This document shows positions 8,051-59,552 of a stretch of 64,000 nucleotides of DNA, one piece after another (within the stretch, counting starts at the first letter, position 1; every line of letters begins with the position of its first letter). Below the pieces are notes generated by a model. That model had not been told where the DNA came from. It did no database searches and worked only from the letters and a program-made list of their open reading frames with translations. Where the stretch lies: positions 57,266,237 to 57,330,236 of the forward strand of contig NC_088302.1 of the NCBI RefSeq assembly GCF_032854445.1, read 5' to 3'. The position numbers and the translations under genes were made by a program. This DNA comes from Liolophura sinensis (Eukaryota; Mollusca; Polyplacophora; Chitonida; Chitonidae).

Positions 8051-11000
8051 CTAATGTTTACCCCCAGGTTTACCCTTATCAGGACCCAGAGGCTTCTCCG
8101 CTGATGTTGCACTTGGCTTACTTTTGGTGGGGTCCTCCTTACTCCGCTTGTGATCTAATAGCACTGCTTTGCCTGTATCTTTGGCAGCACGTTTTGCGAT
8201 GGCTTTGACACCCAGATGGTTCACATTGTAGCCAGTCATGGCTAGATTCCCTGTGGCATACAAAGTGTGGTCTGCAAACTTTGCAGCATCTGCACCATAC
8301 CTGCAAATAAGACAAACCACAATGTCATTTATATAGTCCTAACAACAAATAGAGGGTATGTTTGACCATGTCCTGGTTTGTCATAAAAAACACAGAGTTA
8401 ACACTTATAATTCTAAAACAAATAACAAACTATGCTAAAATCCAGCAATGTTTTTTCACGAAAATAGTTGTTTTTCACACAACCCTAACTGGATGGTGTA
8501 TCCCATTACTTACTTATGATTCACAACTTGGACAGTTTCATTGGCCAGGTTTCTTGCCAGAGCCTTAGCTGCAGCCTCTAACCCCATGTAGACTGTACCA
8601 AAACCTGCAAATACAAAGAATCACACCTTTATCCCAAAACCTGCATGTACATGTAAACAATATCAAACATACATGTGCATGTACCAAAACCTGCATATAC
8701 ACAGAATCAACCATACCTGTATGTGTACCAAAACCTGCATATACACAGAATCAACCCTACATGTGCATGTACCAAAACCTGCATGTACATTAAATCAACC
8801 ATACATGTACATGTACCAAAACCTGCATATACACAGAATCAACCATACCTGTACATGTACCAAAACCTGCATATACACAGAATCAAACCTACATGTGCAT
8901 GTACCAAAACCTGCATGTACATTAAATCAACCATACATGTACATGTACCAAAACCTGCATATACACAGAATCAACCATACCTGTATGTGTACCAAAACCT
9001 GCATATACACGGAATCAACCCTACATGTGCATGTACCAAAACCTGCATATACACAGAATCAACCATACCTGTACATGTACCAAAACCTGCATATACACAG
9101 AATCAACCATACCTGTACATGTACCAAAACCTGCATATACACAGAATCAACCATACCTGTACATGTACCAAAACCTGCATATACACAGAATCAAACTCTG
9201 GTGTATACGTGTACCCTAACCTGCACAGACACAGAATAAAACCATGATGTATACATGTATCAAAACCTGCATGTACACAGAATCAAACCTTGGTGTATAC
9301 GTGTACCAACACCTGCATATACACAGAATCAAACCTTGGTGTATACATGTACCAAAACCTGCATATACACAGAATCAAACCCTGGTGTATACATGTACCA
9401 AAACCTCCATGTACACAGAATCAAACCCTGGTGTATGCTCGTACCAAAACCTCCATGTCCACAGAATCAAACCTCGGTGTATACATGTACCAAAACCTCC
9501 ATGTACACAGAATCAAACCCTGGTGTATGCTCGTACCAAAACCTCCATGTCCACAGAATCAAACCTCGGTGTATACATGTACCAAAACCTCCATGTACAC
9601 AGAATCAAACCTTGGTGTATACATGTACCAAAACCTCCATGTACACAGAATCAAACCCTGGTGTATGCTCGTACCAAAACCTCCATGTCCACAGAATCAA
9701 ACCTTGGTGTATACATGCACCAAAACCTCCATGTACACAGAATCAAACCTTGGTGTATACATGTACCAAAACTTGCATGCACACAGAATCAAACCTTGGT
9801 GTATACATGTACCAAAACCTGCATGCACACAGAATCAAACCCTGGTGTACACATCTACCAAAACCTCCATGTACACAGAATCAAACCTTGGTGTATACAT
9901 GTACCAAAACTTGCATGCACACAGAATCAAACCTTGGTGTATACATGTACCAAAACCTCCATGTACACAGAATCAAACCCTGGTGTATACATGTACCAAA
10001 ACCTCCATGTACACAGAATCAAACCTTGGTGTATACGTGTACCAACACCTGCATGTACACAGAATCAAACCTTGGTGTATACATGTACCAAAACCTCCAT
10101 GTACACAGAATCAAACCTTGGTGTACACATCTACCAAAACCTGCATGTACACAGAATCAAACCTTGGTGTATACATGTTCCAAAACCTGCATATACACAG
10201 AATCAAACCAAGGTGTATACATGTACCAAAACTTGCATGCACACAGAATCAAACCCTGGTGTATACATGTACCAAAACCTGCATATACACAGAATCAAAC
10301 CTCGGTGTATACATGTTCCAAAACCTGCATATACACAGAATCAAACCCTGGTGTTCACATGTACCAAAACCTGCATGTACACAGAATCAAACCCTGTTGT
10401 TCACATGTACACAGAATCAAACCTTGGTGTATACATGTTCCAAAACCTGCATATACACAGAATCAAACCAAGGTGTATACATGTACCAAAACCTGCATGC
10501 ACACAGAATCAAACCCTGGTGTTCACATGTACCAAAACCTGCATGTATACAGAATCAAACCCTGGTGTTCACATGTACCAAAACCTCCATGTACACAGAA
10601 TAAAACCCTGATGCATACATGTATCAAAACCTGCGTGTACACAGAATCAAACCCTGGTGTATACATGTACCAAAACCTCCATGTACACAGAATAAAACCC
10701 TGATGCATACATGTATCAAAACCTGCGTGTACACAGAATCAAACCCTGGTGTATACATGTACCAAAACCTGCATGTACACAGAATCAAACCTTGGTGTAT
10801 ACATGTACCAAAACCTCCATGTGCAAAGAATCAAACCTTGGTGTATAAATGTACCAAAACCTCCATGTACACAGAATCAAACCTTGGTGTATACATGTAC
10901 CAAAACCTGCATATACACAGAATCAAACCCTGGTGTATACATGTACCAAAACCTCCATGTGCAAAGAATCAAACCTTGGTGTATAAATGTACCAAAACCT

Positions 11001-14000: not shown

Positions 14001-17000
14001 AAGTGTACTTTGTAACTCGGCATCATGTAATCCTGCCAAAACGCAATATAGTCAAACAAATATATTGCACAATTTATGAGTGAAGAAATGTGAAGATAAT
14101 TCTGAATCTGTGTAAATACAGTCTAATCCTCATTAGACTGGCGTCACTTATTCCAGTCTTTGGACTTAGCGAACAGTGAGAATTTGGGCTGTCAACCCAT
14201 AGATTGTATTGTTATCAAACGTACATGTAGATGAACTTCTTGAGCGCTCTTCCATTAAAATGGATTGTGTAAGGTATCACACTGGGCTTTATACAAGTAT
14301 GGCTGAGTGACAACAGTGATTACCCTACATTGTTATGTAAACCAACACAATACAGATTAATATAAAGTATTATTTTGTTTTCTAGAATTTAGTTTGTACT
14401 ATTACTGTGGACAACTGTGTAAATCAAGCAGACTGTTTTGTAACCAGAGAGCTGTATGAGTGATTTGAATATGCTATGAATTAATAATGATGTATTAGAC
14501 TTTGTGTAATGGGTCTCTAACATAACGGGTCTCTAACATACTGTGTCATGTTCTACAAGAGGAGCCGGTACAATATATCGATATTTGGTTACCTAGAACT
14601 GGGCACTAATAAAGTCCAGTAGAAACCAATGACAGCTGGTTGAGTTGATCTATCATCATGATCCTCGATTACACTCCTCTTACATATACATGTCAGATGT
14701 GCGTTACACTCCTCTTACATATACATGTCCGTTGTGCGTTACACTCCTCTTACATGTACATGTCCCATGTGCGTTATGCTCCTCTTACATATACATGTCC
14801 GATGTGCGTTACACTCCTCTTACATATACATGTCCGATGTGCGTTACACTCCTCTTACGTATACATGTCCGATGCGCGTTACACTCCTCTTACATGTACA
14901 TGTCCGATGCGCGTTACACTCCTCTTACATATACATGTCCGATGTGCGTTACACTCCCCTTACATGTACATGTCAGATGTGCGTTACACTCCTCTTACAT
15001 ATACATGTCCGATGTGCGTTATACTCCTCTTACATATACATGTCCGATGTGTGTTACACTCCTCTTACATGTACAGGTCCGATGTGCGTTACACTCCCCT
15101 TACATATACATGTCCGATGTGCGTTACACTCCCTTTACATATACGATGTGCGTTACACTCCTCTTACATATACATGTCCGATGTGCGTTACACTTCCCTT
15201 ACATATATATGTCCAATGTGCATTACACTCCCCTTACATATACATGTCTGGTGTGCGTTACACTCCTCTTACCTATACATGTCTGATGTGCATTCCACAG
15301 TTGACTTACAAAAGCTTTTGGCCATGATTTCATACAAGTACATGTATATACACTGTATTATCTTACAAGTGGTACTGACAAATGTAAGGGCAGACTGACA
15401 TACATGTAGTCAATACACATATGTGGTTTTCATTAAGTCACTGCAAAAACTTTATTTACAGCAGTCATCGTACGTGAGAAGGTCTTGCAGCAACCTGCAG
15501 ATGGCTGTGGGTTAGAGCCTGGAATCCTTTAACTATGAAAAAGCTGGCCGTCATTATGTAAGTGAGGCATGCTTGAGTGGATTAATTGTCCTTCTTTCTC
15601 TCATCATCCATAAAACACTACATGTACCTGTAACAATTCTCTGCTGGCAGGACACAGGTCTTTCTCTCATCATCCGCAATACAGTACATGTACCTGTAAC
15701 AATTCTCTGCTGGCGGGATACAGGTCTTTCTCTCATCATCCGCAATACAGTACATGTATTTGTAACGATTCTCTGCTGGCAGAACACAGGTCTTTCTCTC
15801 ATCATCCGCAATACAGTACATGTACCTGTAACAATTCTCTGCTGGCGGGACACAGGTCTTTCTCTCATCATCCGCAATACAGTACATGTACCTGTAACAA
15901 TTCTCTGCTGGCAGGACACAGGTCTTTCTCTCATCATCCGCAATACAGTACATGTACCTGTAACAATTCTCTGCTGGCAGGACACAGGTCTTTCTCTCAT
16001 CATCCGCAATACAGTACATGTACCTGTAACAATTCTCTGCTGGCGGGACACAGGTCTTTCTCTCATCATCCGCAATACAGTACATGTATTTGTAACAATT
16101 CTCTGCTGGCAGGACACAGGTCTTTCTCTCATCATCCGCAATACAGTACATGTATTTGTAACAATTCTCTGCTGGCGGGATACAGGTCTTTCTCTCATCA
16201 TCCGCAATACAGTACATGTATTTGTAACGATTCTCTGCTGGCAGAACACAGGTCTTTCTCTCATCATCCGCAATACAGTACATGTATTTGTAACGATTCT
16301 CTGCTGGCAGAACACAGGTCTTTCTCTCATCATCCGCAATACAGTACATGTACCTGTAACAATTCTCTGCTGGCGGGACACAGGTCTTTCTCTCATCATC
16401 CGCAATGCAGTACATGTACCTGTAACAATTCTCTGCTGGCAGAACACAGGTCTTTCTCTCATCATCCGCAATGCAGTACATGTACCTGTAACAATTCTCT
16501 GCTGGCAGGACACAGGTCTTTCTCTCATCATCCGCAATACAGTACATGTACCTGTAACAATTCTCTGCTGGCAGGACACAGGTCTTTCTCTCATCATCCG
16601 CAATACAGTACATGTACCTGTAACAATTCTCTGCTGGCGGGACACAGGTCTTTCTCTCATCATCCGCAATACAGTACATGTACCTGTAACGATTCTCTGC
16701 TGGCGGAACACAGGTCTTTCTCTCATCATCCGCAATACAGTACATGTACCTGTAACGATTCTCTGCTGGCGGGACACAGGTCTTTCTCTCATCATCCGCA
16801 ATACAGTACATGTACCTGTAACAATTCTCTGCTGGCGGGACACAGGTCTTTCTCTCATCATCCGCAATACAGTACATGTATTTGTAACAATTCTCTGCTG
16901 GCAGGACACAGGTCTTTCTCTCATCATCCGCAATACAGTACATGTATTTGTAACAATTCTCTGCTGGCAGGACACAGGTCTTTCTCTCATCATCCGCAAT

Positions 17001-19811
17001 ACAGTACATGTACCTGTAACAATTCTCTGCTGGCAGGACACAGGTCTTTCTCTCATCATCCGCAATACAGTACATGTACCTGTAACAATTCTCTACTGGC
17101 AGGACACAGGTCTTTCTCTCATCATCCGCAATACAGTACATGTACCTGTAACAATTCTCTGCTGGCAGGACACAGGTCTTTCTCTCATCATCCGCAATAC
17201 AGTACATGTACCTGTAACAATTCTCTGCTGGCAGGACACAGGTCTTTCTCTCATCATCCACAATACACTACATGTACCTGTAACGATTCTCTGCTGGCAG
17301 GACACAGGTCTTTCTCTCATCATCCGCAATGCAGTACATGTACCTGTAACAATTCTCTGCTGGCAGGACACAGGTCTTTCTCTCATCATCCGCAATACAC
17401 TACATGTACCTGTAACGATTCTCTGCTGGCAGGACACAGGTCTTTCCCTCATCATCCGCAATACAGTACATGTACCTGTAACAATTCTCTGCTGGCAGGA
17501 CACAGGTCTTTCTCTCATCATCCGCAATACAGTACATGTATTTGTAACGATTCTCTGCTGGCAGGACACAGGTCTTTCTCTCATCATCCGCAATACAGTA
17601 CATGTACCTGTAACAATTCTCTGCTGGCAGGACACAGGTCTTTCTCTCATCATCCGCAATACAGTACATGTATTTGTAACGATTCTCTGCGGGCGGGACA
17701 TAGGACACAGGGCCCACAAACCTACTGTAATCCTGAGTAAAATCTTTGTGGCCACTCTCTGCTAGTAGGACACACAACCCACGAAACTGCTGTAGACCTG
17801 TGTAAAATCTTTGTTGCTACTTTCTGTTCTCTGTTAGCTGGACATAGGATCCACAAACCTACTGTAAACCTTTGTAACATCTTTGTTACTACTCATTTAA
17901 TTACTCTCTCTTCTCAGCTAGCAGGACACAAGACACACATACCTACTGTAATCCCATGTGAAATCTTTGTGGCTACTCTCTCTTCTTCTTTTTTGGTTCC
18001 AGCGCCGGCAGTCTCTATGGCAACCTGTTCGCCTGCCTCCCCAAGGTCCTCAGCACTGATTGGTTCTTCCTGCTCGTGCATTGCTGTCAGGGATTCCATA
18101 AGATCCTCAAAACGTTGGCGATCAGCCGGGGACACAGTGTCAGGGAGGATAACTCCTACAGATGAACCTGGGCAAACAAGTTAAGGTTATTCAACTGAGG
18201 TTTAGGGTTTAGACAACTGCAAGAGGGCACATGAATGGTAGTTGTGTAGATACAAACAGCTTGCAATGGACCTGGGAATTACATCACAGGCAAGAAAGCA
18301 GTCCTTAGTTCTATAAGAGTTCTGATCGAAATCATGTGAAATTACAGGTATAATATCTGTCTGAAAAACGGGACATGAAGCTCTAGACTAGTGATATGAT
18401 GTGTGTGGGCTAAGCGGAGACTCTCTGAGTACTGTTCTCGCTCCAGTGTTTTATACACAGGATACTGTTTCTGCCATCCTCGTGTTTATCTAACACATTA
18501 ACAAGAAATGATGACTGATTGGTGCTCAGGTTTTCCAGGGAAGGAAATCTGGTACAATATAGTGCAGGTCACCACAGCTTGCAACATGTATGTCTTATCC
18601 AGTGGCTGTCACAAAATAAACGCCTTAACAATTTGCCCAACAAAGCTTATTTTTACAGAATCCCAAAATATCCCTTCTGGTACTGACATTTTTCCAGTAA
18701 GATACATGTATGATACTAGATTCAAAACAAAACGAAAACATCTTTCAATAATGAATGGAACTCTCAGAATCAGGCTAAACCAGTAACTTTATCAGAATCA
18801 GGAAAACTAGTAACTTTATCAGAATCAAGCAAGACCAGTAACTTTATCAGAATCAGGCAAAACCAGTAACTTTATCAGAATCAAGCAAAACCAGTAAATT
18901 TATCAGAATCAGGCAAAACCAGAAACTTTATCATTAAGAAATTTCCGATCATATACAGTAACAATAAAACAAAGTATAGATATCTGCAATTCCAAAGCAT
19001 GTAAATCATGTTTACATTTGAAATATGACACAGTCTTACCTTCATATGGGTTACCAACATCTGGAAAGATGTAAGCTCCATAGCTTGCATGTAGAGCTGG
19101 AGAGACACCAGGGACGAGCGGGTAAAACCAGTCTCCGACCTGAAGAAAGGCAGGGGGCCGCTGCACGGGGTTAGCTACTTCCGCATCCTGCTCAAACTTG
19201 TAGGCCCTCAGAGCACTAGGGTAGGATGGGGCACTGACAAACCCCTCAGGGGTGATGTAGAATATCTGAACGCCCTCAGGGATGCTGTACAACTCAGTGG
19301 CATTGGCTGCCAGTGGACTGCAGGCTGCTGCGCTCTCTTCATTGTATAGGCTATCGCCCAACTCCAGGAAGGACGTGTGACCAGTGCTGGTGGCTTCCTC
19401 GTAAGAAGGGGGCTGCTCCTCTGACAAGTCCATGGCACCTGCTCCTGTTTCCGCCAAGGCAGCCGCAGGCCGCAGGCTCTCAAGGCGGCTCTCAATCTGG
19501 AGCTTAGATTTTGTCATTTTGCTAAGAAGTTTTCTAGCCGTATCTTTGTGCTGGGCGGGAATGTCTGTTGTCTCTGTACCTAGTCCCAAGGCTTGCTCAA
19601 TCACAACAAGACCTTTGACGTAGCACTCAATGGCCTCCTGGATACTTCCCTGCTCATCCAATGACAGCCCTCGGTCAATGTGTTCATAAGCTTCATCATG
19701 GATGCGTTTAAGTCTGGAGTAAGTGTCACTTCTGACAGCGGACTGGCTGTCTGCAGACACTGTGGGTGGGGGAGGACGAGGGGGGCGTGACCGCTCTTCC
19801 TGACACTCCAT
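8051..19811 (-). CDS. SPART: Spartin (SPART/SPG20) orthologue, six coding exons
   Basis: Coding exons in order: 19811-19040, 18167-17943, 12042-11848, 11491-11330, 8604-8514, 8300-8051. All introns are GT-AG, phases agree, and the product is 564 residues (human spartin is 666). Residues about 30-110 form the N-terminal MIT domain (DEAYEHIDRGL). PPSY at 134-137 is a WW-domain ligand of the kind spartin uses to bind Itch-type ubiquitin ligases. GVQIFYITPEG and RPPAFLQVGDWFYPLVPG are the conserved central region. Residues about 325-510 (AEWMSWGVGKGAEKAG, YLAPHVKRHG, YNVNHLGVKA) are the senescence domain, followed by a short charged tail. Known role of the family: endosomal trafficking, cytokinesis and lipid-droplet turnover. 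An in-frame TAG lies eight codons before the ATG, which has a purine at -3. A strong acceptor at about 19875 suggests at least one upstream non-coding exon. The link from exon 2 to exon 3 crosses a 5.9 kb repeat-filled intron, but phase and family alignment (KISHGITVAAEWMSWG) support it. Confidence 0.93.
8640..11065. repeat. Array of SPART exon 5 acceptor junctions, 44/46-bp units, about 50 copies
   Basis: It lies in SPART intron 4 (8605-11329). On the SPART strand each unit reads GATTCTGTGTATATGCAG followed by GTTTTGGTACA. The real junction at 8605/8604 reads AGAATC-complement, TTTGTATTTGCAG, then GTTTTGGTACAG of exon 5. So each unit repeats the intron end plus the first 11 exonic bases. Units near the exon (8690-9200) are 44 bp and the rest (to 11065) 46 bp. 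Plus-strand open frames of 437-482 codons are read-through of this array. Confidence 0.9.
11540..11790. repeat. About 73-bp tandem repeat, 3-4 copies, in SPART intron 3
   Basis: The unit contains AAAACAATCAGTTATCGGTA, CTGATCAAGCCTGCAAGCAA and TCAGGTGGACACGTGAAATG. On the SPART strand each unit carries CACATTTCACGTGTCCAC followed by TTGCTTGCAGGCT, an acceptor-like end. The sequence just upstream of the genuine exon 4 acceptor (CACATTTTCCATGTCCAC) is a diverged relative. Confidence 0.8.
12320..13830. repeat. 88-bp minisatellite, about 17 copies, with higher-order structure
   Basis: Unit: CAGGAATGTCTTGCCAAGGA, TACCAGAGTTGACACCAAAC, ATGTGTAGGATGGTCTGAAT, GATATGTACAACATTTACAG, TCATGTCA. It lies in SPART intron 2 near exon 3. 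A four-unit block (about 12600-12950) recurs almost identically 352 bp later (about 12952-13300), so part of the array grew by block duplication. Plus-strand frames of 65 codons that repeat every 352 bp are by-products. Confidence 0.92.
13831..14660. other. Unique stretch inside SPART intron 2
   Basis: AT-rich non-repetitive DNA between two arrays. I searched it on the minus strand for an additional SPART exon and found none. A tiny duplication CGGGTCTCTAACATA occurs at about 14508-14540. Confidence 0.4.
14661..15295. repeat. 35-bp minisatellite, about 18 copies, in SPART intron 2
   Basis: Unit ACACTCCTCTTACATATACA then TGTCCGATGTGCGTT, with a few shorter copies. The three staggered plus-strand frames (200-246 codons) come from a 35-bp period cycling through all frames. 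Confidence 0.92.
15466..15581 (+). mobile_element. tRNA-derived SINE, partial copy
   Basis: It matches the middle and tail of the SINE family: GCAACCTGCAGATGGCTGTG and CTGGCCGTCATTATGTAAGT, ending TGCTTGAGTGG. The tRNA-like head and the A-rich end are missing. It sits at the border of the 66-bp array. Confidence 0.6.
15590..17690. repeat. 66-bp minisatellite, about 32 copies, in SPART intron 2
   Basis: Unit CAGGTCTTTCTCTCATCATC, CGCAATACAGTACATGTACC, TGTAACAATTCTCTGCTGGC, AGGACA. Copies are nearly identical; variation is confined to a few sites (CCTGTAACAA/TTTGTAACGA, GCAGGAC/GCGGGAC/GCAGAAC). A period divisible by three makes both strands open (730 codons plus, 547 and 503 minus). None has domain content or an independent start context, and all lie inside a SPART intron. 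Confidence 0.95.
17690..17965. repeat. Degenerate copies of the SPART exon 2 donor junction
   Basis: On the SPART strand the end of exon 2 and the start of intron 2 read GTAGCCACAAAGATTTCACA, TGGGATTACAGTAG, then GTATGTGTGTC. Three diverged copies follow within the intron at about 75-80-bp spacing (GTAACAAAGATGTTACA..., CAACAAAGATTTTACAC..., GCCACAAAGATTTTACT...), each ending in ACAGTAGG or ACAGCAGT at the junction position. They pass directly into the 66-bp array, whose TCCTGCCAGCAGAGAA block resembles the TCCTGCTAGCTGAGAA just after the true donor. Confidence 0.75.
18780..18925. repeat. 28-bp tandem repeat, about 5 copies, in SPART intron 1
   Basis: Unit CAGAATCAGGCAAAACCAGT plus AACTTTAT. 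Short and homogeneous. It does not reach either splice site of the intron. Confidence 0.85.
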
Positions 19812-19954
19812 TTTCTGGGGCAGTACAACAATCTACAAAACACAACAAATATCAGGAATGTGTAGAGAAACAAACTGAAAGAAAACAAAAAAAATATGTC
19901 AGCATTAAGACCATTAAAAACTACCTTAGCCCTAGTGTGCCATATGTGTGATAT

Positions 19955-23908: not shown

Positions 23909-23998
23909 AGGGACACAAAAAGTTCAGCGCACCTTTGCCATTCCTGTGGTTTGGATGTAGCAATGGCATACAGGTGGACTCAATAAAGTACAGACAAA

Positions 23999-34393
<10,395 letters not shown>

Positions 34394-37612: not shown

Positions 37613-37722
37613 GGGGCCTCCATGGCTCAGTTGGGTGCCTCGCTAGCGCAGCGTGATGACCCAGGAGCCTCTCACCAGTGTAGTCGCTATGAGTTCAAGT
37701 CCAGCTCGTGCTGGCTTCCTGT
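37613..37722 (+). mobile_element. tRNA-derived SINE, head only
   Basis: It shows the tRNA-like promoter: GGGCCTCCATGGCTCAGTTG (A-box region), then TATGAGTTCAAGTCCAGC (B-box region) and GTGCTGGCTTCC. The core and tail are missing, which is the reverse of the usual 5' truncation. Confidence 0.75.
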
Positions 37723-39190: not shown

Positions 39191-39194
39191 AGAC

Positions 39195-42112: not shown

Positions 42113-42114
42113 GA

Positions 42115-46393: not shown

Positions 46394-49300
46394 ATGGTCA
46401 GCTCGCTGCTATTCGTCAGGTGTGGAATCTACTGCCTTCTCCTTCTCACTTTGTGTCAAACTATGATATCAGCAGGTAAGAAATCGTCAGTGTCAAACTA
46501 TGATATCAGCATGTAAGAAATCTTCATTGTCAATCTAAGATATCACCTGGTAAGAAATCATCATTTTCAAACTGTGACAGCCGTTGCAAGGTTGTCAGAC
46601 TGTGATAGATGTAGGCATGAAATCATCATTGATAGCATTGGCAGAGTGTGATAGCTGCAAGTAAGAAATCATCATTGATAACATTGTCAGACTATGATTG
46701 CCGTACATAGCAAATCATCATCGATAACATTGTCAAACTATGATATCTGCAGATAAGAAATCATCATTGCTAACATTGTCAAACTGTGATAGCTGCAGGT
46801 AAGAAATAATCATTGATAGCGTTGTCAAACTGTGATAGCTGCAGGTAAGAAATCATCAGTGATAACATTGTCAAACTGTGATAGCTGCAGGTAAGAAATC
46901 ATCATTGATAACATTGTCAAACTGTGATAGCTGCAGGTAAGAAATCATCATTGACAACATTGTCAAACTGTGATAGCTGCAGGTAACAAATCATCATTGA
47001 TAACATTGTCAGACTGTGATAGCTGCAGGTAACAAATCATCATTGACAGCATTGTCAAACTGTGATAGCTGCAGGTAAGAAATCATCATTGATAACATTG
47101 TCAGACTGTCATAGCTGCCGGTAAGAAATCATCATTGATAACATTGTCAAACTGTGATAGCTGCAGGTAACAAATCATCATTGATAACATTGTCAGACTG
47201 TGATAGCTGCAGGTAATAAATCATCACTGATAACATTGTCAGGCTGTGATAGCTACAGGCAATAAATCATCATTGATAACATTGTCAGACTGTGATAGCT
47301 ACAGGTAAGAAATCATCATTGATAACATTGTCAGACTGTGATAGCTGCAGGTAAGAAATCATCATTGACAACATTGTCAGACTGTCATAGCTACAGGTAA
47401 GAAATCATCATTGTCAGGATTATTAACCATAATTTTGTGGGCCCGTAACAGAGAAAAAAGCCAGATCAAATGTGCAGAAACTTAACACGGTTCTTGCCTA
47501 TAAAGTGTTTATTCATCTTTTGTTGGTGTATTATACCGTACCCAAGAATATTTCACTTATACGACGACGGCCACTAAAATGGTGTTAGGATACCGTGCAG
47601 ATATGGGATCTGAAGTAGTGCATATACAAAATATGTTGCCCCATGTCACATGACTTGGCGGCCATATTGGATTTATATGAAAACCCTTTAAGAATGTTCT
47701 TCTCTAGAGCCACGAACAGATTTTTTTCCAATTTGGCATTTGTGACTATAACTGGGTGACAATCAAAACTTCTTAATACGTAAATTAGGCTTGGGTGGAC
47801 CAATGAAAATAGGACGCTAGTAAGTCAACTGTAAAAACTGCGCAACTGGATTGAACTAAAATATTTCTGAGACTTCCCTCACCTCAGGATCATGAATTGT
47901 AATGAATTATTCCAGTTCAAACTGTGGTTTCACGGAATTGCCAAAATTTTCAAAAATTACCAAGCAGGCTTTGTGTAAGGCCTACGTAAAACTTACGTCT
48001 TATTTTACCAATAGTGGTAATAAATTCCATCCGATTTTAAAGAAATTAAGTATGTTTTGTGGGCGGCTTAAAAACAGTGACGTGTAAATACGGAGTAAAG
48101 TTGGTAGCGTGGTTTGGAGGTCATTTTCTATTTCGTGAAACCAAGACCTTTGTTAAACGCCTTTTTCTCAAGGAATAATAAAGCGATTGCTATAAAGTTT
48201 TATATTTTTGTAGACCGACCAGCAGTACATAAAGTTTTAGAAAGGCATTGAATTTCGTATGCAACTTCTAATGCTCGCCATTGGTTGGACATTTGACATC
48301 ACAAAAACTTTTGAATTTTTATATAACCTTGACGAGTTGTCACACTTAGGGACTGTAGGCCGCTAATTTACATTCTGCTCTCAATGTTTTTCCATTTTTG
48401 TCTAGGTTTCAAAAAATCATCAACGAAAACTGTTGACTTCAAAACACTTCAAAAATTCTCTCATGTATGTAAAGTGGGAAGGGGGGTGCGGGGGGGGGGG
48501 GGCTTCGTGCAAGACTACTGTCGGAACAGGCATTTGGCTATGAGCAGAAGATCAGGGCCACATAATCTCTATGTTTTTATGGTAATAATCCCTTCATACG
48601 TGATACCTGTCACAGCAACAAAAGTTTTCAAAACTGTTCAAAAATCTCTCATTTATGTAAACTGGGGGTGGGGACTTCGTGCAAGGCTGCCTGAAACTGA
48701 TTACTGCAGCTTACCTGTCGGAACAGGCATCAAGCTCTGCAGCAGTGTATTTATTTTAAGTCTTTTGTGTTTGGCTATGAGCAGAGGATCAATGTCACTT
48801 AATCTTTATGTTTGCCTATAGTAATAATTCCATTGTACGTGATACCTGTCTAGGGTTCTCGGTTTCAAATCCAAGACACCCCTTTTCGTTTTTTTTTCTT
48901 CTTGTCCTTTTAACCATAGTTATCATTACTATTACCAATATAATTTATGCACTGCGCACAGAGCCAATGTACGGAGCCTGTGTCCTCCACAGCTAATTTT
49001 TTTCTTTATCAATGTTAATCGTTGCTGAAGAAATGATCCTTTTAACCATCTACACTATCGAATTCGTAATCTACATTGATCTACGCCCTGCAAACAGCCT
49101 GACATTCCGGCTATTATAGGATGCCCACATCTGTTTAGTCTGAGGTAAACCTGAATTTGACGGTAGCAAACTAAATTGTTTGTCTGAAGTTATGTCTGTT
49201 AAATATTGAAGAGGTAAACTGTACCACATGGAACTGCATTTGCTGAAGTCGATAATTAGTTAATATTTTATCTTTCATTCGCAGATGGACAAAACGCGTA

Positions 49301-52300
49301 TCCGATCCGCCCTAAGCAGTGTGCCTATTTGTAAGGCGTCTCTGCGGTGGTTTTGCGCACAGGTTTCGTCTTAATTTTTATTTATTTTGGGGGGGGGGGG
49401 GGTCCAACCTTTTACACTTTAGTAATATTATTCGGCTGAAATCACAGCGTATTTATTCGTAAACCTAGTTCACATAGTAACACGATATCATCTGTCTCTG
49501 CGTATAGTTCATGGTACCGACCACTACATCAAACATTTCGGGCCTAAAACATCACGGTGTTTCTTTACTCTTTCATCCCTAAAATAAAGAATAACTTACA
49601 AGCACAATATCGTCTACCTGTATTTTAAGTACCGTCAAGAGTTTCACTTCGGCTTTTCTGAAAGATTCCCAACAAAACATGCAATATTTGAAGAATAGCG
49701 CTGAGTGGAGTGATTGCATGGCTATTCAATAAAGTGTTTCTTTAAGTTGACCATATTCCGCATTTGCCCCAGCCGGATCTTAAATTAACGCTGCCCTACT
49801 AACTTCCAGTCAAAGCGGAACCTGGGCATGACCATAGGCTTGCATCTGTAACTAGCACACCATGTTATTTAAACAAACCCATATTTACTTAGTCCTCTGT
49901 ATATAAACGCACACTGCCTCACCTAACGATCCTAACGTCAACATTGTTATGTTTTACTACTATCACTTCATAGTGTAACAGTGAATTTATTTACATCGAA
50001 CATTTATTTGTGTGTAATAATTCCGACAAGGTATTACATTAAGTCATTGTATAGGATAGACTGAGTCTATCAAATCCTCGTATCACATACTTTTTTTTTT
50101 GATACGTCCCATTTCTGAATACTGGATAAACTTACAGCATTAGAACAATCCTGGCGTCTTTGTGGTGCCATTAAAAAAATTGGCTCTTCTTTGATGAATA
50201 CGCTCTCTTTTCTTACTTTATATACTTTTCTTATTTATCGGGTGGTTTGTTTCGAGGATTCACGATTAGTATACGATGGTCTGTTTCCACGCCTGGAAAA
50301 ATAAACGGTATGTAACCCATTCTGTTAGGTTTGGAACATTGAGCACGTGATAGGCCTATTTATCGGATGAAATATCAGGAGACGCAGCACTGCAAAATAT
50401 AACCCGTGGTGTTTTGTTAGCAGGTTTGTGTGACAGTGGGTGGCTGCAGTACAAGGGGAGCTGTTATGGGATATATACTGATCAAGGATTGGTCGGAAGT
50501 ATGAACAACGCTATCCGGTTCTGTCGCTCTCGCGGAGCCCATGTTGTCACAGTGGAAACCCCGGAGGAAAACTACTTTATTCAGGTGGCATTAAACGTGA
50601 GTACCATAGTGTACAACCAACATTAGAATTTGTCTGTGTGGGTAATATTATTTAAGATCAATGAAGAATGTCAGCTCGGCTGATGTGTAGTTTGACACAC
50701 TACCTGTCTCACTTTGGTAAAACATTAAAGTCATGAAGACGTCATGGTTTACAAGAACAAAAAATAGGAACAAAAAAATAACTGATTTTAGAAAACTAAG
50801 ACCGATTCCGCAACTCCATTTCTTACTTGAGTCGGTGTTCGAAATCAGATTTTTATAGCCTATTTAGAAAATTAAACTTGTAGCCACCTTATAAATGTTA
50901 TCTAAGTTGAATGTGTGAAAATATCAGATTTCTGTACAGAACATTAAGCATTGTGACCATGTTTGAAGTTTGACATGACTTTGTGTAGTTGACCCCTGCA
51001 TTACGGTGAAATATTTATGTGCAAAAAGCTGTGAGCAGGCTTTTTGTCTTATACAAAACTCATGGACCACACGGCTTCGTCTGCACGGCGACTACCTTCA
51101 CATATTTATGTAAGAAAGTCAGTGAATTAGGGTGAATGAACGATTATGGCCTTATATCACATCGCCAATATTTCAGCCTTATCGTGAAGAACATTGTGTT
51201 ACAGACAGTGCATTCGATTCTAACGGCAGTTTATTAGAGATATTGTATTAAATACATGAGCAGTATGTTAGTGAGAGTGTTTTAGAACGTATTGACTGAT
51301 TGAGTATCAGAGGTTACTGACGTCGCACAGAGGCAATGTATTACTGTGCATTGAGATTTTATTGAGAGTATATTATGCTGTATGGAGAGTGCGCTAGAGT
51401 GTATTAGAATGTATTTACAATGTATTCGAGTGTATTGACAGTGTATTATAGTGTACGGACGATGTATGAGAAAAAGTGTATAAAAGTGCATTGGCGGTGT
51501 ATTAGAGACAATGTACATTTATTAGAGTGCATTGGTAGTGTATTGGAGTGCATTGGTAGTGGAGTGTACTGGCAGAGTATTAGAAATAATGTTCTAAATG
51601 TTTTAGGGTGTATTGGCAGAATATTAGAGTGTATGTAAAGCATATTCGAGCGTATTGACAGTGTTTCTAGACAATATAAAGACATTAATAATATATAATA
51701 TAATATTATAGACAATACTGATAGTGTATTAGTGTATTATACAGGACAATCCGCAAACTGAGAGAACTACTCATATCTCAGACTGTATGCATGCCTATTC
51801 ATAACTGGACAATCCGCAAAATGGCAGATCTAGTCATATCTCAGACCGTGCGAATAGCTATTCATAACAGGACAATACACAAACTGGCAGATCTAGTCAT
51901 ATCTCAGACTGTACGCATGCCTATTCATAACTGGACAATACGCAAAATGGCAGATCTAGTCATATCTCAGACTGTATGTATGCCTATTCATAACTGGACA
52001 ATACACAAACTGGCAGATCTAGTCATATCTCAGACTGTACGCATGCCTATTCATAACTGGACAATCCGCAAAATGGCAGATCTAGTCATATCTCAGACCG
52101 TGCGAATAGCTATTCATAACAGGACAATACACAAACTGGCAGATCTAGTCATATCTCAGACTGTACGCATCCCTATTCATAACTGGACATCCCTAGTCAT
52201 ATCTCAGACCGTGCGAATAGCTATTCATAACAGGACAATACACAAACTGGCAGATCTAGTCATATCTCAGACTGTACGCATGCCTATTCATAACTTGACA

Positions 52301-55300
52301 ATCCGCAAAATGGCAGATCTAGTCATATCTCAGACTGTACGAATGGCTATTCATAACAGGACAATACACAAACTGGCAGATCTAGTCATATCTCAGACTG
52401 TACGAATAGCTATTCATAACAGGACAATCCCCAAACTGACAGAACTAGTCATATCGCAGACTGTACGAATAGTTATTCATAACAGGACAATACCCAGACT
52501 GACAGAACTAGTCATATCTCAGACTGTACGAATAGTTATTCATAACAGGACAATACCCAGACTGACAGAACTAGTCATATCTCAGACTGTACGAATAGCT
52601 ATTCATAACTGGACAATCCCCAAACTGACAGAACTAGTCATATCGCAGACTGTACGAATAGTTATTCATAACAGGACAATACCCAGACTGACAGAACTAG
52701 TCATATCTCAGACTGTACGAATAGCTATTCATAACAGGACAATACCCAAAATGACAGAACTAGTCATATCTCAGACTGTACGAATAGCTATTCATAACAG
52801 GACAATACCCAAAATGACAGAACTAGTCATATCTTAGACAGCTCGTAGATCGTAGATAGCTCTAGAATAGCTATCATTCACAGGACAATCCCAAGACTGA
52901 CAGAACTAGTCATATCTCAGACTCTACGAACAGCTATCGTTTACAGGACAATCCCCAAACTGACAAAACTAGTCATATCTCAGACTGCAGGACCAGCTAT
53001 CGTTTACAGGACAATCCCCAAACTGACAAAACTAGTCATATCTCAGACTGCAGGACCAGCTATCGTTTACAGGACAATCCCAAACTGGCAGTACTAGTTA
53101 TACCTCAGATGTTAAGAGCAGGTATCATTACCAGGACAGTCCCCAAACTGACAGAACGTCATATCTCAGACTGTGCGAATGCCTATTCATAACTGGACAA
53201 TTCCCAAACTGACAGAACTAGTCATTTCTTGAACTGCCCTAATAGCTATCACGTACATGACAGTCCCCAAACTGGCATAACGTCATATGTCAGACTGTAC
53301 AAATGGCTATTCATAACTGGACAATCCCCAAAGTCAAAGAATGAGTCATATCTCAGACTGCATGAACAGTTATAATTTACAGGACAATCCACAAACTGAC
53401 AGAATGAGTCATATCTCAGACCGTATGAACGGTTATCATTTACAGGACAATCCCCAAACTGACAGAAATATTTATACCTCAGACTGTACGATTTTTTTTT
53501 TTTTTTGATTGTTGTTTTACGCCGTACTCAAGAATATTTCACTTATACGACGGCGGCCAGCATTATGGTGGGAGGAAACCGGGCACAGCCCGGGGGAAAC
53601 CCACGACCATCCGCAGGTTGCTGGGAGACCTTCCCACGTACGGCCGGAGATGAAGCCAGCATAAGCTGGTCTTGAACTCACAGCGACCGCGTTGGTGAGC
53701 AGCTTCTGGGTCACTACGCTGCGCTAGCGCGCTAACCGACTGAGCCACGGAGGCCCCCTGTGAGCCACGGAGGCCCCCAGACTGCACGAACTCTTGACTA
53801 CTTTTACAATCTTTTACTTCAGATATATCTCATTATATTAGTAAAATGTAGAATGTTAGGCTGCGTCATGGCTCAATATTGAATCTCGTAAAACGGCGCT
53901 ATGGTCATTTAAGTAACCTTCCTTTGTCGAGGCATGTTGAACTTTGATTTCTTCCCACAGAATTCCAAGCAGTTATCTCGCTGTTTCATGGGAATAACTG
54001 ACTTTTGGTCTGAAGGAGAATTCCAGACATTACGGAGAGAACAGATTCCTTACGAAAACTTTAAAGGTAAGTTTTTGTTCAGTTTGTCTCTACTGTGATA
54101 TTGAGTAGCGTTTTCCGCTATAGTCCTGCATCGTAATTACCACACATACCACACAATTAAGTCTTCTCGCTAGCTCATTGATGTAAAGCGTTCTTATCGA
54201 CTCTTAACACGTGAGGTCGAAAAAGGTCTCACTAGGAGGCCCTCCTTCGATAGATCTAAATCACTTCATATCATTTCCAAAACATACGTCCATAAATATT
54301 TAATACAGCCTTAAAACTAGAGATTTGTTGTTGTAAGATTTTACAACTGATGAAAGCTACAATAAGTTAAAACCAAAGTTTTTGATAACTTCTTTGAGTG
54401 TGAGGATAACGGTTTCCATACCTCGATTAGCTATATGTCACAGCATACACACTCCCGCCACCACAATAGCTGTAAGTCACAGCATACACACTCCCGACAC
54501 CACAATAGCTGTAGGTCACAGCATAAACACTCCCGCCACCACAATAGCTGTAGGTCACAGCATATACACTCCCGCCAATACAGCAGCTGTAGGTCACAGC
54601 ATATACACTCCCGCCACCACAGCAGCTGTAGGTCACAGCATATACACTCCCGCCAATACAACAGCTGTAGGTCACAGCATAAACACTCCGGCCAATACAA
54701 CAGCTGTAGGTCACAACATATACACTCCCGCCACCACAACAGCTGTAAGCCACGGCATACACACTCCAGCCACCACAATAGCTGTAAGTCTCGGCATACA
54801 CACTCTCGCCACCACAACAGCTGTAGGTCACAGCATACACACTCCCGCCACCACAACAGATGTAAGTCACAGCATATACACTCCCGCCACCACAACAGCT
54901 GTAGGTCACAGCATATACACTCCCGCCAATACAACAGCTGTAAGTCACGGCATACACACTCCCGCCACCACAATAGCTGTAAGTCACAGCATATACACTC
55001 CCGCCAATACAGCAGCTGTAGGTCACAACATATACACTCCCGCCACCACAACAGCTGTAAGTCACAACATACACACTCCCGCCACCACAATAGCTGTAAG
55101 TCACAGCATGCACACTCTCGCCACCACAACAGCTGTAGGTCACAGCATATACTCTCCCGCCACCACAACAGCTGTAGGTCACAGTATACATACCCCCGCC
55201 ACCACTATAGTTGTAAGTCATAGCATACACACTCCCGCCACCACAATAGTTGTATGCCACAGCATGCACACTCCCGCCACCACAATAGTTGTAAGTCACA

Positions 55301-58300
55301 GCATATACACTCCCGCCACCACAATAGTTGTAGGTCAAAACATACAAACTCTCGCTATGACGATAGTTGTAGGTCACAGCATACATACTCCCGCCACAAT
55401 AACAGCAGGAGGTCAGAGCATGTACACACCGGCCACCACCATAACTGTATACCCTGCTTTTCTCATCTACCAAGTTAGAACATACACACTGCTGTCACAT
55501 CAGGGCGCAATGCCCTACTTGTCCAGTGCACCTAAAAACACACTTCATGTCACAAAATTCAACCTTTCCGGCATCTAGGGGTAATGTCCTGATAAAAAAA
55601 TTTTTTACAGAAATATTGTGGTCTAAAATCTAGAAAGTGTTTTGATGGCACTGCCATACCACACTCTTCTGTACTTTCTGCATTCACAGCTTGTACATAT
55701 AGACAATTAATTGTCTGAGTAAGCAATGGTTACCCTAGCAAGGATTGTCTAAAATATTCGTCACGCCACATTACGTCGCTCTCTCAAATCTAGCTCTTAA
55801 CCAGGAAAGTCAGGTCATAGTTACCCTGGCAAGGATTGTCTAAAACATTCCTCTCGCCACATTACGTCACTCTCTCAAATCCAGCTCTTATCCAGGAAAG
55901 TCAGGTCATAGTCACCCTGGCAAGGATTGTCTAAAACATTCGTCTCGCCACATTACGTCGCTCTCTCAAATCCAGCTCTTATCCAGGAAATTCAGGTCAT
56001 AGTTACCCTGGCAAGGATTGTCTAAAACATTCGTCTCGTCACATTACGTCGCTCTCTCAAATCCAGCTCTTATCCAGGAAAGTCAGGTCATAGTTACCCT
56101 GGCAAGGATTGTCTAAAACATTCGTCTCGTCACATTACGTCGCTCTCTCAAATCCAGCTCTTATCAAGGAAAGTCAGGTCATAGTTACCCTGGCAAGGAT
56201 TGTCTAAAACATTCGTCTCGCCACATTACGTCGCTCTCTCAAATCCAGCTCTTATCCAGGAAAGTCAGGTCATAGTTACCCTGGCAAGGATTGTCTTAAA
56301 CATTCGTCTCGCCACATTACGTCGCTCTCTCAAATCCAGCTCTTATCAAGGAACGTCAGGTCATAGTTACCCTGGCAAGGATTGTCTAAAACATTCGTCT
56401 CGCCACATTACGTCGCTCTCTCAAATCCAGCTCTTAACCAGGAAAGTCAGGTCATAGTTACCCTGGCAAGGATTGTCTAAAACATTCGTCTCGTCACATT
56501 ACGTCGCTCTCTCAAATCCAGCTCTTAACCAGGAAAGTCAGGTCATAGTTACCCTGGCAAGGACTGTCTAAAACATTCGTCTCGCCACATTACGTCGCTC
56601 TCTCAAATCCAGCTCTTAACCAGGAAAGTCAGGTCATAGTTACCCTGGCAAGGATTGTCTAAAACATTCGTCTCGCCACATTACGTCGCTCTCTCAAATC
56701 CAGCTCTTAACCAGGAAAGTCAGGTCATAGTTACCCTGGCAAGGATTGTCTAAAACATTCATCTCGCCACATTACGTCGCTCTCTCAAATCCAGCTCTTA
56801 ATCAAGTAAGTCAGCTACATGGCAAAGTGTGGTGGCAAAGTGTGGTGGCAAAGTGCGCTGGAAAAGTGTAGTAGCAAAGTGTAGTAGCAAAGTGTGGTGG
56901 CAAAGTGTGGTGGCAAAGTGTGGTGGCAAAGGTTGAAAGCTGACGTGTAAGTGAAATTTTTCTCTTTTCTCATTAGTCGAGAGGCTTGATACACCATTCA
57001 CAAAAATTATCTGAGCTGAAGTAACAATAAAATGGTAATGGCCTGTTTTCCCCAGTTCCCGACCCCGATAATGGAGGACGATCTCCTATTCCTGAAAACT
57101 GTGTGTGCCTGTTGGCAAAATCGGGCCTGTGGAAAGATCAAGCCTGCACCAACACCAAAACCGACGCTTTCGTTTGTGAAAAGGGTATGTGGAAGCCTAA
57201 CAATAGATCTCTTCTTTCGATTGATTTGAAGATTTTTATTAGGCTAAAATGGGCGCTGCAGGGTGTTAGCTTTTAAACCATGCTAAGCACCGAGTCAGAA
57301 CCAACTTTTATATAGACGCGTGAAATTGTATTCATTTATAAAGATTTTCCCCAAAATAACAAACAAACACCACTTGCCTAATGAAACGTCAATTGACTAC
57401 GAAATATCATCTCAGTACCATTAATCCTATCTGTGCAAATTCATGTATATGACGTCTGAAGTCAAATCCTTTTGGGAGTTTTCACGCAGATATTAGGAAA
57501 CTGTTTGCAAAATGTAATTCTGATTCATGGAATCATACTTTTATGCAAAAATTAAAAATTTTGTAAACTGAAAAACGAATCTTTGACGATAATTTTCAAC
57601 CTGTGACTATTCTACTGTTGGTTCAGTCCTATACTTAACTTGCTGCAACGAAAAAGCTGTCGTTTCGACCAATTTTATGTCTCCGTTACGTTGCCTATAT
57701 TACAGGTGTTATGTTAAATCTTGTCCATGCATTTGGGATGTATCATTGAGGTAGATTTGAACCTCCATTTGAACTGACTCTTACAACTGTCTATTTTTTA
57801 GTGTGTTGATCCACCAATAAGCTTAGCATAATACAGAACCATAGATAATCCGAAAACCCCGGGAAGTGGCATGTTTGGCATTTCTGAATTTCGACAAAAT
57901 TTTATTTGTCATCTTCAGAATACGTCAAAAGTCACAAAATGAGGTGGTATGTATACACAGTTTAGTTATGCAAACAAACAATAGCAGATTTAGATTGATG
58001 AATGATTTAGTGGATGTAGTCAGTGAACAAGAGCGATAGGTATAGGGGGCTGTTAAGTTGGGGAAGAGGGGGTGTGGGGGGTGGGTGACAGTAACATATT
58101 TATTTATTTGATTGGTGTTTTACGCCGTACTCAAGAAATATTTCACTTATACGACGGCGGCCAGCATTATGGTGGAAGAAAACAGGGGGAAACCCAAGAC
58201 CATCCGCAGGTTGCTGCCAACCTTCCCACTTACGACCGGAGAGGAAGCCATCATGACTTGAACTCACAGCGACCGCATTGGTGAGAGGCTTCTGGGTCAT

Positions 58301-59552
58301 TACGCTGTGCTAGCGCGCTAACCATCTGAGCCACGGAGGCCCCGCTGACAGTAACAGGTATTCTGTAGACACTGACAAACTATATGGTGGTTAGAATTAA
58401 CAGTCTTTCATCGAAATGAGGCAAAAAAAAAACTGGTAACAGGGTATACTAATGGGATTAGAGGATTAGGCTAGTAAATATAAATGTACTGTAAAAGCAA
58501 CCTAACGACACACAGCGAATGGAAATACACAATTCAGACAACCTGGAGATAAGTACAGTAGTATCAATGCAATGAGTAGAGGATAAAATACAAATGTCTA
58601 TGGCAAGTATAATGTCAGCAAATTAACTTAAGTAAAAAAGGGAAACAAAGCTTAACACTTATATTTTGTCAATGTCCTAAATATTAACGAAGAGAAAAAA
58701 TATTGTGGTTGTTTAGAAGGCGGTTATTTCGTTGGATGGTTAGTTCCTCCCTAAGTGAAAGTACATTCCAGTTGTCCGAGGTGTCAATAACCCTGGCATT
58801 CAGGAGAATGGCTGCATAAAGAGGACTCACAGCCTTATTACTCAGTCAGGGAGGTCCAGTAGATCTATGTACTCTTGGAATGATTCACAAAAATACAAAC
58901 TTGTGAGAATGGGTGCTCTTTGGAGCAAGGTAGAAGGCAGTTCATCTTTTCCAATGTAAGAGGGATTGCAATCGGGACAGTCAAACCGGTAAACCGCATT
59001 GCTTCTTTCGTCGAGGGATGTGTAGTTTTGGCATTTAATTATCCTGCCGGTTTCTAAATCTGCTAAGCCGTCTATTGTTTGTTTACATAACTAAACTGGG
59101 TATACATACCAGCTAATTATGTGACTTTTAACGTATAGTGAAGATGACAAATACAATTTGGCCGAAATACTGAAACGTCAACGTTTTTTCGGATTATCTA
59201 TGCTTTTGCATTCTACTTTTTAGTTTTGAATTGTTTTAACAGCACATCTGTTGCCAAGACTTGTCTTTTTCTCTTGTCAGCCCTTTATCACAGGTCCTCA
59301 CAAGGTTTAGAAATTATGTATGGGAAGCGCCTTGATGATGCGAGCTGTCAGCTTGAATCCTATACTGTCACGTCTCCGGTGGAGTGTGCAGCCAGATATC
59401 TCCAGTCCGGCGTAGCGCTCGCCTTCAACGTCGCACGTGTGCTGTCAGGGACAACGCCCAATTGTCACGTGATGAACTGTACACCAATGGACGTCAGCGC
59501 CGTGAAGACCGATCCGGACTGGATATTACACCATTATCCTGAAATTTATTAG
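46394..59552 (+). CDS. Secreted C-type lectin with PAN/apple-like C-terminus, five coding exons
   Basis: Coding exons: 46394-46475, 50424-50596, 53961-54066, 57056-57184, 59281-59552. All introns are GT-AG, phases 1,0,1,1, and the product is 253 residues. The ATG sits in a strong context (ACCATGG). Residues 1-27 are a signal peptide (CGIYCLLLLTLC). Residues 29-163 are a long-form C-type lectin domain: CDSGW and GSCYG give the extra N-terminal disulfide, FCRSRGAHVVTVETPEEN the first core cysteine, and ENCV, ACTN and FVCEK the remaining three. The Ca-site triplet is DPD rather than EPN or QPD, and the WND motif reads WKD, so calcium and sugar binding may be altered or lost. Residues about 170-253, one exon, resemble a PAN/apple-like module (SPVECAARYL, AFNV, CHVMNC) with one sequon NCT. 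A candidate AATAAA lies at 60893-60898. By family it would be an extracellular recognition protein; the ligand cannot be inferred. Confidence 0.87.
46455..47410. repeat. 46-bp array of lectin exon 1 donor junctions, about 20 copies
   Basis: Exon 1 ends GTCAAACTATGATATCAGCAG and intron 1 begins GTAAGAAATC. The array unit is GTCAAACTGTGATAGCTGCA, G, GTAAGAAATCATCATTGATA, ACATT. So each copy repeats about 20 exonic bases with the donor. Copies close to the exon are the most irregular; from 46790 on they are uniform. Some have lost the donor core (GTAACAAATC, GTAATAAATC, GCAATAAATC). Confidence 0.92.
47515..47584 (-). mobile_element. tRNA-derived SINE, short 3' fragment, in lectin intron 1
   Basis: ACCGTACCCAAGAATATTTC, ACTTATACGACGACGGCCAC on the plus strand is the reverse complement of the SINE tail. 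Head and core absent. Confidence 0.75.
47585..48399. other. Unique lectin intron 1 sequence
   Basis: No repeat or exon recognised. Short open frames show no domain content. Confidence 0.35.
48400..48850. repeat. Two-copy tandem duplication with G-tracts, in lectin intron 1
   Basis: Two diverged copies of about 200-240 bp share CAAAACTGTT, CTCTCATTTATGTAAACTGG-like, CTTCGTGCAAG, GTCGGAACAGGCAT, TTGGCTATGAGCAGA and GTGATACCTGTC in the same order. The second copy has an insertion of about 60 bp. A G-run lies at 48481-48503 in the first copy. The 145-codon frame across it is not coding-like. Confidence 0.75.
48851..50423. other. Unique remainder of lectin intron 1
   Basis: Mostly AT-rich, with a run of 13 or more G at about 49389-49402. 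One exon-like segment (49285-49330) is described in the findings. Nothing else supported. Confidence 0.4.
51230..51740. repeat. Degenerate short tandem repeat, lectin intron 2
   Basis: Irregular repeats of GTGTATTAGAGTGTATTG-like units of about 18-25 bp. Too decayed to define one period. Confidence 0.65.
51752..53490. repeat. 63-bp minisatellite, about 27 copies, lectin intron 2
   Basis: Unit CTATTCATAACAGGACAATA, CACAAACTGGCAGATCTAGT, CATATCTCAGACTGTACGAA, TAG. Two subtypes alternate in the first half (GGCAGATC with CGCAAAATGG versus ACACAAACTGG), then a third (CTGACAGAACTAG) takes over. Copies after 52840 decay. The 348-codon frame is read-through of the 63-bp period. Confidence 0.93.
53491..53778 (-). 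mobile_element. tRNA-derived SINE, best-preserved copy, lectin intron 2
   Basis: On the minus strand: GGCCTCCGTGGCTCAGTCGG (A-box region) then TTAGCGCGCTAGCGCAGCGT, then GTGAGTTCAAGACCAGC (B-box region), core, GGGTTTCCCCCGGGCTGTGC, CACCATAATGCTGGCCGCCG, GTGAAATATTCTTGAGTACG, and an A-rich end (T-run at 53491-53506). An extra 18-bp repeat of the head (GAGCCACGGAGGCCCCC) follows at 53760-53778, so the head is partly doubled. Confidence 0.92.
54430..55470. repeat. 39-bp minisatellite, about 27 copies, lectin intron 3
   Basis: Unit CACAGCATACACACTCCCGC, CACCACAATAGCTGTAAGT. Units alternate between GTAAGTCACAG and GTAGGTCACAG, the former being donor-like in the sense direction. The open frames on both strands (398, 348, 262 and 245 codons) are array read-through. 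Confidence 0.95.
55730..56812. repeat. 91-bp minisatellite, about 12 copies, lectin intron 3
   Basis: Unit GGTCATAGTTACCCTGGCAA, GGATTGTCTAAAACATTCGT, CTCGCCACATTACGTCGCTC, TCTCAAATCCAGCTCTTATC, CAGGAAAGTCA. Very homogeneous, with single-base variants only. Confidence 0.95.
56818..56936. repeat. 13-bp tandem repeat, about 9 copies, lectin intron 3
   Basis: Unit GGCAAAGTGTGGT with AGTAGCAAAGTGT variants, ending about 120 bp before lectin exon 4. Confidence 0.85.
57185..58097. other. Unique first part of lectin intron 4
   Basis: AT-rich unique DNA; no exon, RNA or repeat supported. Confidence 0.35.
58098..58343 (-). mobile_element. tRNA-derived SINE, near full length, lectin intron 4
   Basis: Head GGGGCCTCCGTGGCTCAGAT, B-box-like GTGAGTTCAAGTCATG, core and tail TATTTCTTGAGTACGGCGTA then AAACACCAATCAAATAAATA on the minus strand. 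A short internal deletion removes part of the CCGGGCTGTGCCCGG block. Confidence 0.9.
58689..59076 (-). pseudogene. Decayed GIY-YIG retroelement fragment (Penelope-like type)
   Basis: Minus-strand reading gives NAVYRFDCPDCNPSYIGK, which matches the N-terminal GIY-YIG (URI) endonuclease motif of Penelope-like and related retroelements (usually VY..xCxxCxxxYIGKT). After the YIGK the frame shifts to NCLLPCSKEHPFSQVCIFV, matching the usual arginine/KEH segment. A third stretch, ARVIDTSDNWNVLSLREEL, matches the C-terminal part of the same domain. At least one frameshift and stop codons (TAG, TGA) separate the blocks, so it is dead. No reverse transcriptase remains next to it. It lies antisense inside the last lectin intron. 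Confidence 0.6.

Follow-up and report, generated by a model that had tools for sequence, protein, structure and literature searches.

Tandem repeats that copy the splice junctions of the genes in which they lie belong to a type of structure that is already published. The closest described examples are the 'mirages' of amphioxus, in which exon-intron boundaries of the Adh3 and globin genes are duplicated in tandem in the manner of a minisatellite (PMC3087553). In that report, the Adh3 data and the RT-PCR of the globin paper suggest that regular splicing is undisturbed, instability among alleles and in somatic tissue is mentioned, and a route to intron gain is proposed. In humans, the 31-bp VNTR of CBS, c.1444_1467+7(16_21), represents a single-gene parallel, since its name implies 24 exonic and 7 intronic bases across a donor, in 16-21 copies (PMC2630376). 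Human IFI6 (6-16) carries a minisatellite with multiple splice donors; its repeat units provide several donor sites, and the downstream ones are used in isoforms (PMC4526556). In potato, an intron was created by tandem duplication across an intron-exon boundary (PMC4974935). Within the open-licence papers searched we found no genome-wide count of junction-spanning arrays and, as far as this literature shows, the new elements of the present analysis are the mollusc as a taxon, the sampled rate and the bias toward donors.

The window analysed here is a stretch of 64,000 nucleotides from the chiton Liolophura sinensis (G000:C8:57266237-57330236, in a genome of 609,464,459 bases on 632 contigs), for which arrays copying exon-intron junctions had been proposed at six junctions in three genes. 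All six exist when re-derived from open exon models with consensus splice sites, and each junction lies in or beside an array that repeats it together with exonic bases, the weakest case being intron 4 of the SPART-like gene. We consider these arrays to be minisatellites of the amphioxus mirage type, probably formed by local tandem duplication. The three gene models are uninterrupted frames of 495 aa (TMEM184C), 564 aa (SPART) and 253 aa (lectin), with the Pfam domains PF03619, PF06911 and PF00059, respectively. These domains fit the names TMEM184C and SPART given in the original prediction, though the paralogue label 'C' is that prediction's own and the genes are called '-like' here. A search of the window for RNA elements returned no Rfam match at gathering scores. 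Tandem Repeats Finder (TRF) output merged into 38 arrays with a summed length of 45.6% of the window (slightly overcounted where arrays overlap). The published repeat catalogue of this genome assigns only 0.08% to 'Other (simple repeat, microsatellite, RNA)' and leaves 14.04% unclassified (PMC11068029).

The TMEM184C-like gene (23999..34393, plus strand) is encoded by nine coding exons (23999-24243, 24774-24810, 25723-25928, 26411-26485, 26741-26834, 30015-30127, 30516-30615, 30890-31067 and 33954-34393), and its open 495-aa frame matches Solute_trans_a (PF03619) with an E value of 2.4e-105. At the donor of intron 5 (GTG/gtaagt at 26834/26835), TRF places a plus-strand array at 26826..28582 with a unit of 54-56 bp that includes 9 exonic bases; more degraded copies continue as far as about 29050, and GT is intact in 28 of the 29 decoy sites. 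Many units of this array (26826-28582) also present an acceptor-like TTCCCAG just 5' of GTG/gtaagt, resembling a repeated 3-nt micro-exon. The acceptor of the same intron (cttccag/TGGGCT at 30014/30015) lies in a second TRF array, at 29545..30047 on the plus strand, made of seven copies of a 71-bp unit with 33 exonic bases. This unit is unlike that of the donor array, and AG is intact in four of its six decoys. At the donor of intron 8 (ATATAG/gtcagt at 31067/31068), a 29-bp unit with 9 exonic bases is repeated over 31059..33572 (plus strand, TRF), and 67 of 83 decoys keep GT.

The SPART-like gene lies on the minus strand (8051..19832; coding exons 19832-19040, 18167-17943, 12042-11848, 11491-11330, 8604-8514 and 8300-8051), and its open 564-aa frame contains a Senescence domain (PF06911, E 5e-42), while the MIT domain scores under its own Pfam cut-off. 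The array at the donor of intron 2 (CAGTAG/gtatgt at 17943/17942) spans 15593..17978 on the minus strand, its TRF edge at 17978 placing 36 exonic bases within the repeat. Its units measure 65-84 bp near the exon and are followed by a diverged 66-bp array that reaches 15593; in the exon-adjoining part, which was the part scanned, two of three decoys have GT. At the acceptor of intron 4 (ttgcag/GTTTTGG at 8605/8604), repeats extend over 8590..11067 on the minus strand, the main TRF array, with a 46-bp unit, occupying 8678-11067. The array and its junction copies are present as had been proposed, and AG is intact in all 39 decoys, but the case is weaker than described because a gap of 74 bp separates the TRF array from the exon start at 8604 and only degraded copies at 8590-8680, read by eye, bridge it and enter the exon by about 11 bp. 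From the TRF and exon coordinates, arrays make up about 87-88% of this intron and of TMEM184C intron 8. The C-type lectin gene (46394..59552, plus strand; Lectin_C, E 2.8e-11) has five coding exons (46394-46475, 50424-50596, 53961-54066, 57056-57184 and 59281-59552) in an open 253-aa frame. The donor of its first intron (CAGCAG/gtaagaa at 46475/46476) lies in a plus-strand TRF array at 46453..47413, with units of 37 and then 46 bp, 23 exonic bases, and GT intact in 16 of 20 decoys.

Within the window, TRF edges fall at 4 of 17 donors and 1 of 18 acceptors, where permutation predicts 0.40 and 0.44 (P 0.002 for both classes together). Since the window had been selected for showing the pattern, this value is post hoc, and an independent sample provides the fair test. 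To escape that selection we assembled loci from Pfam exon matches to four families, namely myosin heads, SNF transporters, chaperonins and aldehyde dehydrogenases, and used 215 of 254 matches in 100 loci totaling 268,850 letters. Candidates were scored in part for myosin (65 of 213), SNF (82 of 487) and aldehyde dehydrogenase (13 of 97) and in full for chaperonin (73 of 73), and in the first three families this may have given an advantage to exons present in extra copies. Splice sites were set from the match frames, generic scoring tables and the pairing of neighbouring exons, giving 361 modelled junctions (173 donors and 188 acceptors). Among the 215 matches, 43 donor and 27 acceptor ends were not placed at first; two of these were later set by hand and the remainder stand outside all counts. 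Donors were hand-set in L077, L026 and L073, and a core at L029 (SNF 341-407, with its donor) and the locus L037 were dropped as false or unresolvable matches inside arrays. Exon cores were screened for arrays lying no more than 30 bp away, and alignments were inspected at the unplaced ends in L073, L047 and L026; in L073 and L026 the arrays begin within the intron.

Tandem arrays account for 10.2% of the sampled sequence by summed length. The window, measured in the same way, carries a minisatellite load of about 45% compared with about 10% in the 100 sampled loci. Twelve of the 361 sampled junctions lie in arrays, comprising 10 of 173 donors (L003, two in L005, L006, L007, L010, L031, two in L036, and L077) and 2 of 188 acceptors (L011 and L018). 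The phenomenon is thus not confined to the window, since striking junction arrays recur in loci chosen independently of it. In L011 (G000:C2:5375300-5379900), for instance, an array at 1846-3206, in which a 32-bp unit is repeated about 43 times, ends at the acceptor directly before a myosin motor exon, with AG intact in 40 of 42 decoys. Other arrays reach deep into the exon, such as those of L010, whose 124-bp unit holds 115 exonic bases and occurs at least six times, and L031, with five copies of a 109-bp unit holding 93. A chaperonin junction array in L036 (G000:C8:53403600-53408200, oriented 2183-2643) is built of 66-bp units whose reading frame remains open across all six decoy donors, and use of these decoys would add 22-residue repeats.

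Set against the amphioxus mirages, the chiton arrays share the defining anatomy. Tandem repeats cover the exon-intron boundary and include exonic sequence at the six window junctions (at one of them through degraded copies only) and at the 12 sampled ones. Many units retain intact splice signals: among copies with no less than 62% identity to the authentic core, badly decayed ones going uncounted, GT is kept in 168 of 194 decoy donors and AG in 85 of 89 decoy acceptors. The anatomy also upholds the proposal that these introns hold many sense-oriented decoy sites. In amphioxus the units likewise span a coding boundary, take in exonic bases and often AG/GT signals, and affect 5' and 3' boundaries alike; they measure 10-72 and 150-160 bp there, compared with 29-140 bp in the chiton, where the unit of L007 is also compatible with a period of 267. 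The two cases differ in that the amphioxus is a cephalochordate and the chiton a mollusc for which a sampled rate (12/361) and a donor bias can be given, and in that the amphioxus account includes RT-PCR and reports of allele instability, whereas the chiton arrays are known from the sequence of one assembly. The CBS repeat is a single polymorphic locus, whereas many genes are affected in the chiton.

The units also appear to be of local origin. Each of the 18 (12 sampled and 6 in the window) matches its home locus only within the 332,850 bp compared, that is, window plus sample. This bears on the idea that mobile minisatellite elements inserted themselves at junctions, in which case related units should occur at unrelated loci; none did within those 332,850 bp, and every unit contains the local exon edge, leaving this explanation with a negligible probability.

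Whether junctions attract arrays more often than chance is a separate question, and here the recurrence at six junctions had been held to argue against coincidence. The competing account, which concerns the donor excess and not the arrays themselves, is that arrays start anywhere in a minisatellite-rich genome and donors are no special target. Our first test, with a fixed exon zone of 60 bp, agreed with it: edge density was 0.34 per kb in exon ends (7 edges, 20.5 kb) and 0.32 per kb in introns (63 edges, 194 kb), which is no excess. Inspection of the alignments revealed that the 60-bp zone had missed deeper exon overlaps (L006, L007, L010 and L031) and that one donor had been misplaced onto a decoy (L077). 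The zone was widened after these overlaps were seen, and the separation of donors from acceptors was unplanned and noticed afterwards. When the exon depth allowed was capped at the length of the unit, intronic edge density predicted 2.35 donors against 10 observed (P 0.0002) and 3.12 acceptors against 2 observed, no excess (P 0.82), and both together gave a P of 0.011. When the positions of 59 complete arrays were permuted within their loci, the expectation was 3.11 donors, with 9 observed (P 0.005), and 3.11 acceptors, with 2 observed; for all junctions P was 0.042. Donors in the sample are therefore hit or retained at about three to four times the rate of the placement null and acceptors at roughly the random rate; donors exceed acceptors (Fisher P 0.017), and the donor excess persists under five other TRF settings (P at most 0.0022). 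The excess is unevenly spread among families, with 4 of 112 donors against 1.38 expected once myosin genes are removed (P 0.051; donors and acceptors pooled give 4 where about 3.0 are expected, P 0.35), 3 of 39 in chaperonins alone (P 0.029), and no excess in SNF alone (1 of 65). The argument from recurrence thus finds support for donors, over-represented in the independent sample at 10/173 against 2.4-3.1 expected, but not for acceptors, at 2/188 against about 3.1, nor under the 60-bp test.

A further check compared perfect donor words across the whole genome, counting tandem pairs per single site for each word and for the same word backwards. For CAGGTAAGT at gaps of 20-50 the two are equal (470 pairs for 9,807 sites against 232 for 4,854 backwards; 4.79 against 4.78%, ratio 1.0), as coincidence would have it, while at gaps of 51-81 there are 901 pairs against 203 backwards (9.2 against 4.2%, ratio 2.2). 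For CAGGTGAGT the first comparison gives 1,188 pairs for 10,097 sites against 75 for 2,731 backwards (11.8 against 2.7%, ratio 4.3) and the second 1,473 against 103 (14.6 against 3.8%, ratio 3.9). Three of the four comparisons therefore yield 2.2-4.3 times more pairs, which supports the donor excess but falls short of proof because over-dispersion is strong, with tens of pairs coming from single arrays, because both gap classes of a word share arrays, and because gene density is uncorrected. About 100 of the 1,188 CAGGTGAGT tandem pairs were listed, and all of these lie in the first 6.7 Mb of G000:C1, where one array contributes tens of them (e.g., C1:5471572-5475216).

Coincidence draws additional support from the random rate of acceptors, from the richness of the window in arrays relative to the sample, and from an aldehyde dehydrogenase gene in L047 (G000:C11:29421800-29428300), where an array of three 79-bp copies (oriented 5858-6094) appears, with the frame read by eye, to lie across the stop codon, further copies of which follow downstream together with the last codons. 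This appears to follow the same logic at another coding boundary, as a process blind to junctions would produce. The unit-limited and permutation tests, the stability across TRF settings and most of the word comparisons count against coincidence, and we regard it as less likely than not. That the donor excess is a genome-wide fact we judge slightly more likely than not. Overall, then, the observation of junction copying is confirmed and belongs to a known kind of structure, and its quantitative twist is new but only moderately supported.

A donor-like motif as the cause of arrays was considered and set aside. In a set of 66 arrays away from junctions, those with at least two donor-like words numbered 7 sense and 6 antisense, 2 and 2, and 0 and 2 at rising cut-offs, which in these small numbers reveals no clear sense bias. 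Raw word counts in the 66 arrays leaned toward sense at the first two cut-offs (39 against 23 and 22 against 11) and toward antisense at the third (2 against 10). Given this near balance of orientations among arrays with repeated donor-like words, the motif by itself is unlikely to be the driver. The AG/GT in the units, singled out in the original prediction, is likewise nothing more than the ordinary splice consensus, though most units do contain it.

The anatomy of the arrays suggests how they may arise and persist. A short segment straddling a splice junction would be duplicated in tandem and then expand through unequal exchange or slippage, duplication striking junctions as it would any other sequence. 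The copy beside the coding sequence would remain the working junction and further copies would accumulate on the intron side, lengthening the intron. Selection would retain only arrays with less than one whole unit in the exon, the spliced message being unchanged provided that the outermost site is used, and intron-side arrays would be tolerated because that site still defines the exon. We infer the mutational step, the selective filter and splicing at the outermost site alike. In all 18 arrays (that of SPART intron 4 judged by eye) the exon overlap is below one unit, a pattern that would follow if arrays survived only where the coding sequence was left intact. The anatomy also fits the proposal that introns grow by junction copying, with the authentic junction staying at the exon and the copies extending into the intron, so that these introns may have lengthened in this way.

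Use of the decoy donors would mostly be harmful. Among the 177 that have GT, the phase is preserved in 60, and only 9 of these are also free of stops, six of the nine being in one chaperonin array (L036b) whose 66-bp units are open to the last decoy. The remaining 168 of 177 are predicted to shift the frame or meet a stop, in contrast to the repeat donors of IFI6, the downstream ones of which are used in isoforms.

Intron gain in progress, through duplication of segments containing AGGT, had been linked to these arrays. The presence of AG/GT in most units is in keeping with it, and the potato intron resembles the chiton arrays in that a tandem duplication involving splice signals is at work; the amphioxus authors also propose such a route from mirages (PMC3087553, PMC4974935). 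In potato, however, a new intron was made, whereas in the chiton existing introns are lengthened. Such a gain would duplicate an exonic segment and place a new intron between the copies; the units here contain at least 9 intronic bases, span an existing junction and lie on its intron side, within existing introns, and no new intron is shown. With in-phase, stop-free extension from only 9 of the 177 decoy donors, we find intron gain under way very unlikely, and the link drawn to it is not sustained.

Another reading is that donor arrays are kept because they help. U1 has roles in exon recognition and in the protection of transcripts from premature ends, and repeated U1-binding sites just inside an intron could strengthen the former or provide the latter. 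Most donor words in the arrays are intact, their conservation is not below that of the other core positions, and the excess is on the donor side only, all as such a benefit would suggest. Conservation of the splice columns, however, is only marginally above that of the remaining compared core for donors (0.924 against 0.905; acceptors 0.955 against 0.921), and the decoys of L005b are weaker than the authentic site, which one of 17 matches. We therefore view a helpful role as unlikely.

What we tentatively put forward is that donors are preferred for the birth or retention of arrays in this lineage, about 1 in 17 (10/173) being copied into the intron, often many times, with the outermost of the near-identical sites still spliced, and that acceptors lack this preference, since a decoy acceptor would come before the true one. 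One possibility for the donor excess is the order of transcription, an authentic donor being transcribed ahead of its decoys and an authentic acceptor lying downstream of its own. This would explain the difference between donors and acceptors, though not the excess above the intron background.

Mirages were earlier noted in a few amphioxus genes, and their occurrence at a measurable rate in a mollusc offers a natural experiment, in which introns whose donor is repeated dozens of times, often at equal predicted strength, would reveal which copy the spliceosome picks. The donor-acceptor difference becomes a testable statement on transcription order and site choice, and the arrays suggest a concrete path of intron lengthening. 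They can also mislead gene prediction in genomes of this kind, as our automatic model once chose a decoy (L077). Apart from the arrays, the window contains a dispersed element with a tRNA-like part and, in some copies, a conserved tail, probably a SINE; by eye, its copies look minus-oriented at about 53490-53770, 58100-58350 and 62105-62365 and plus-oriented at 33600-33830 and 37615-37740.
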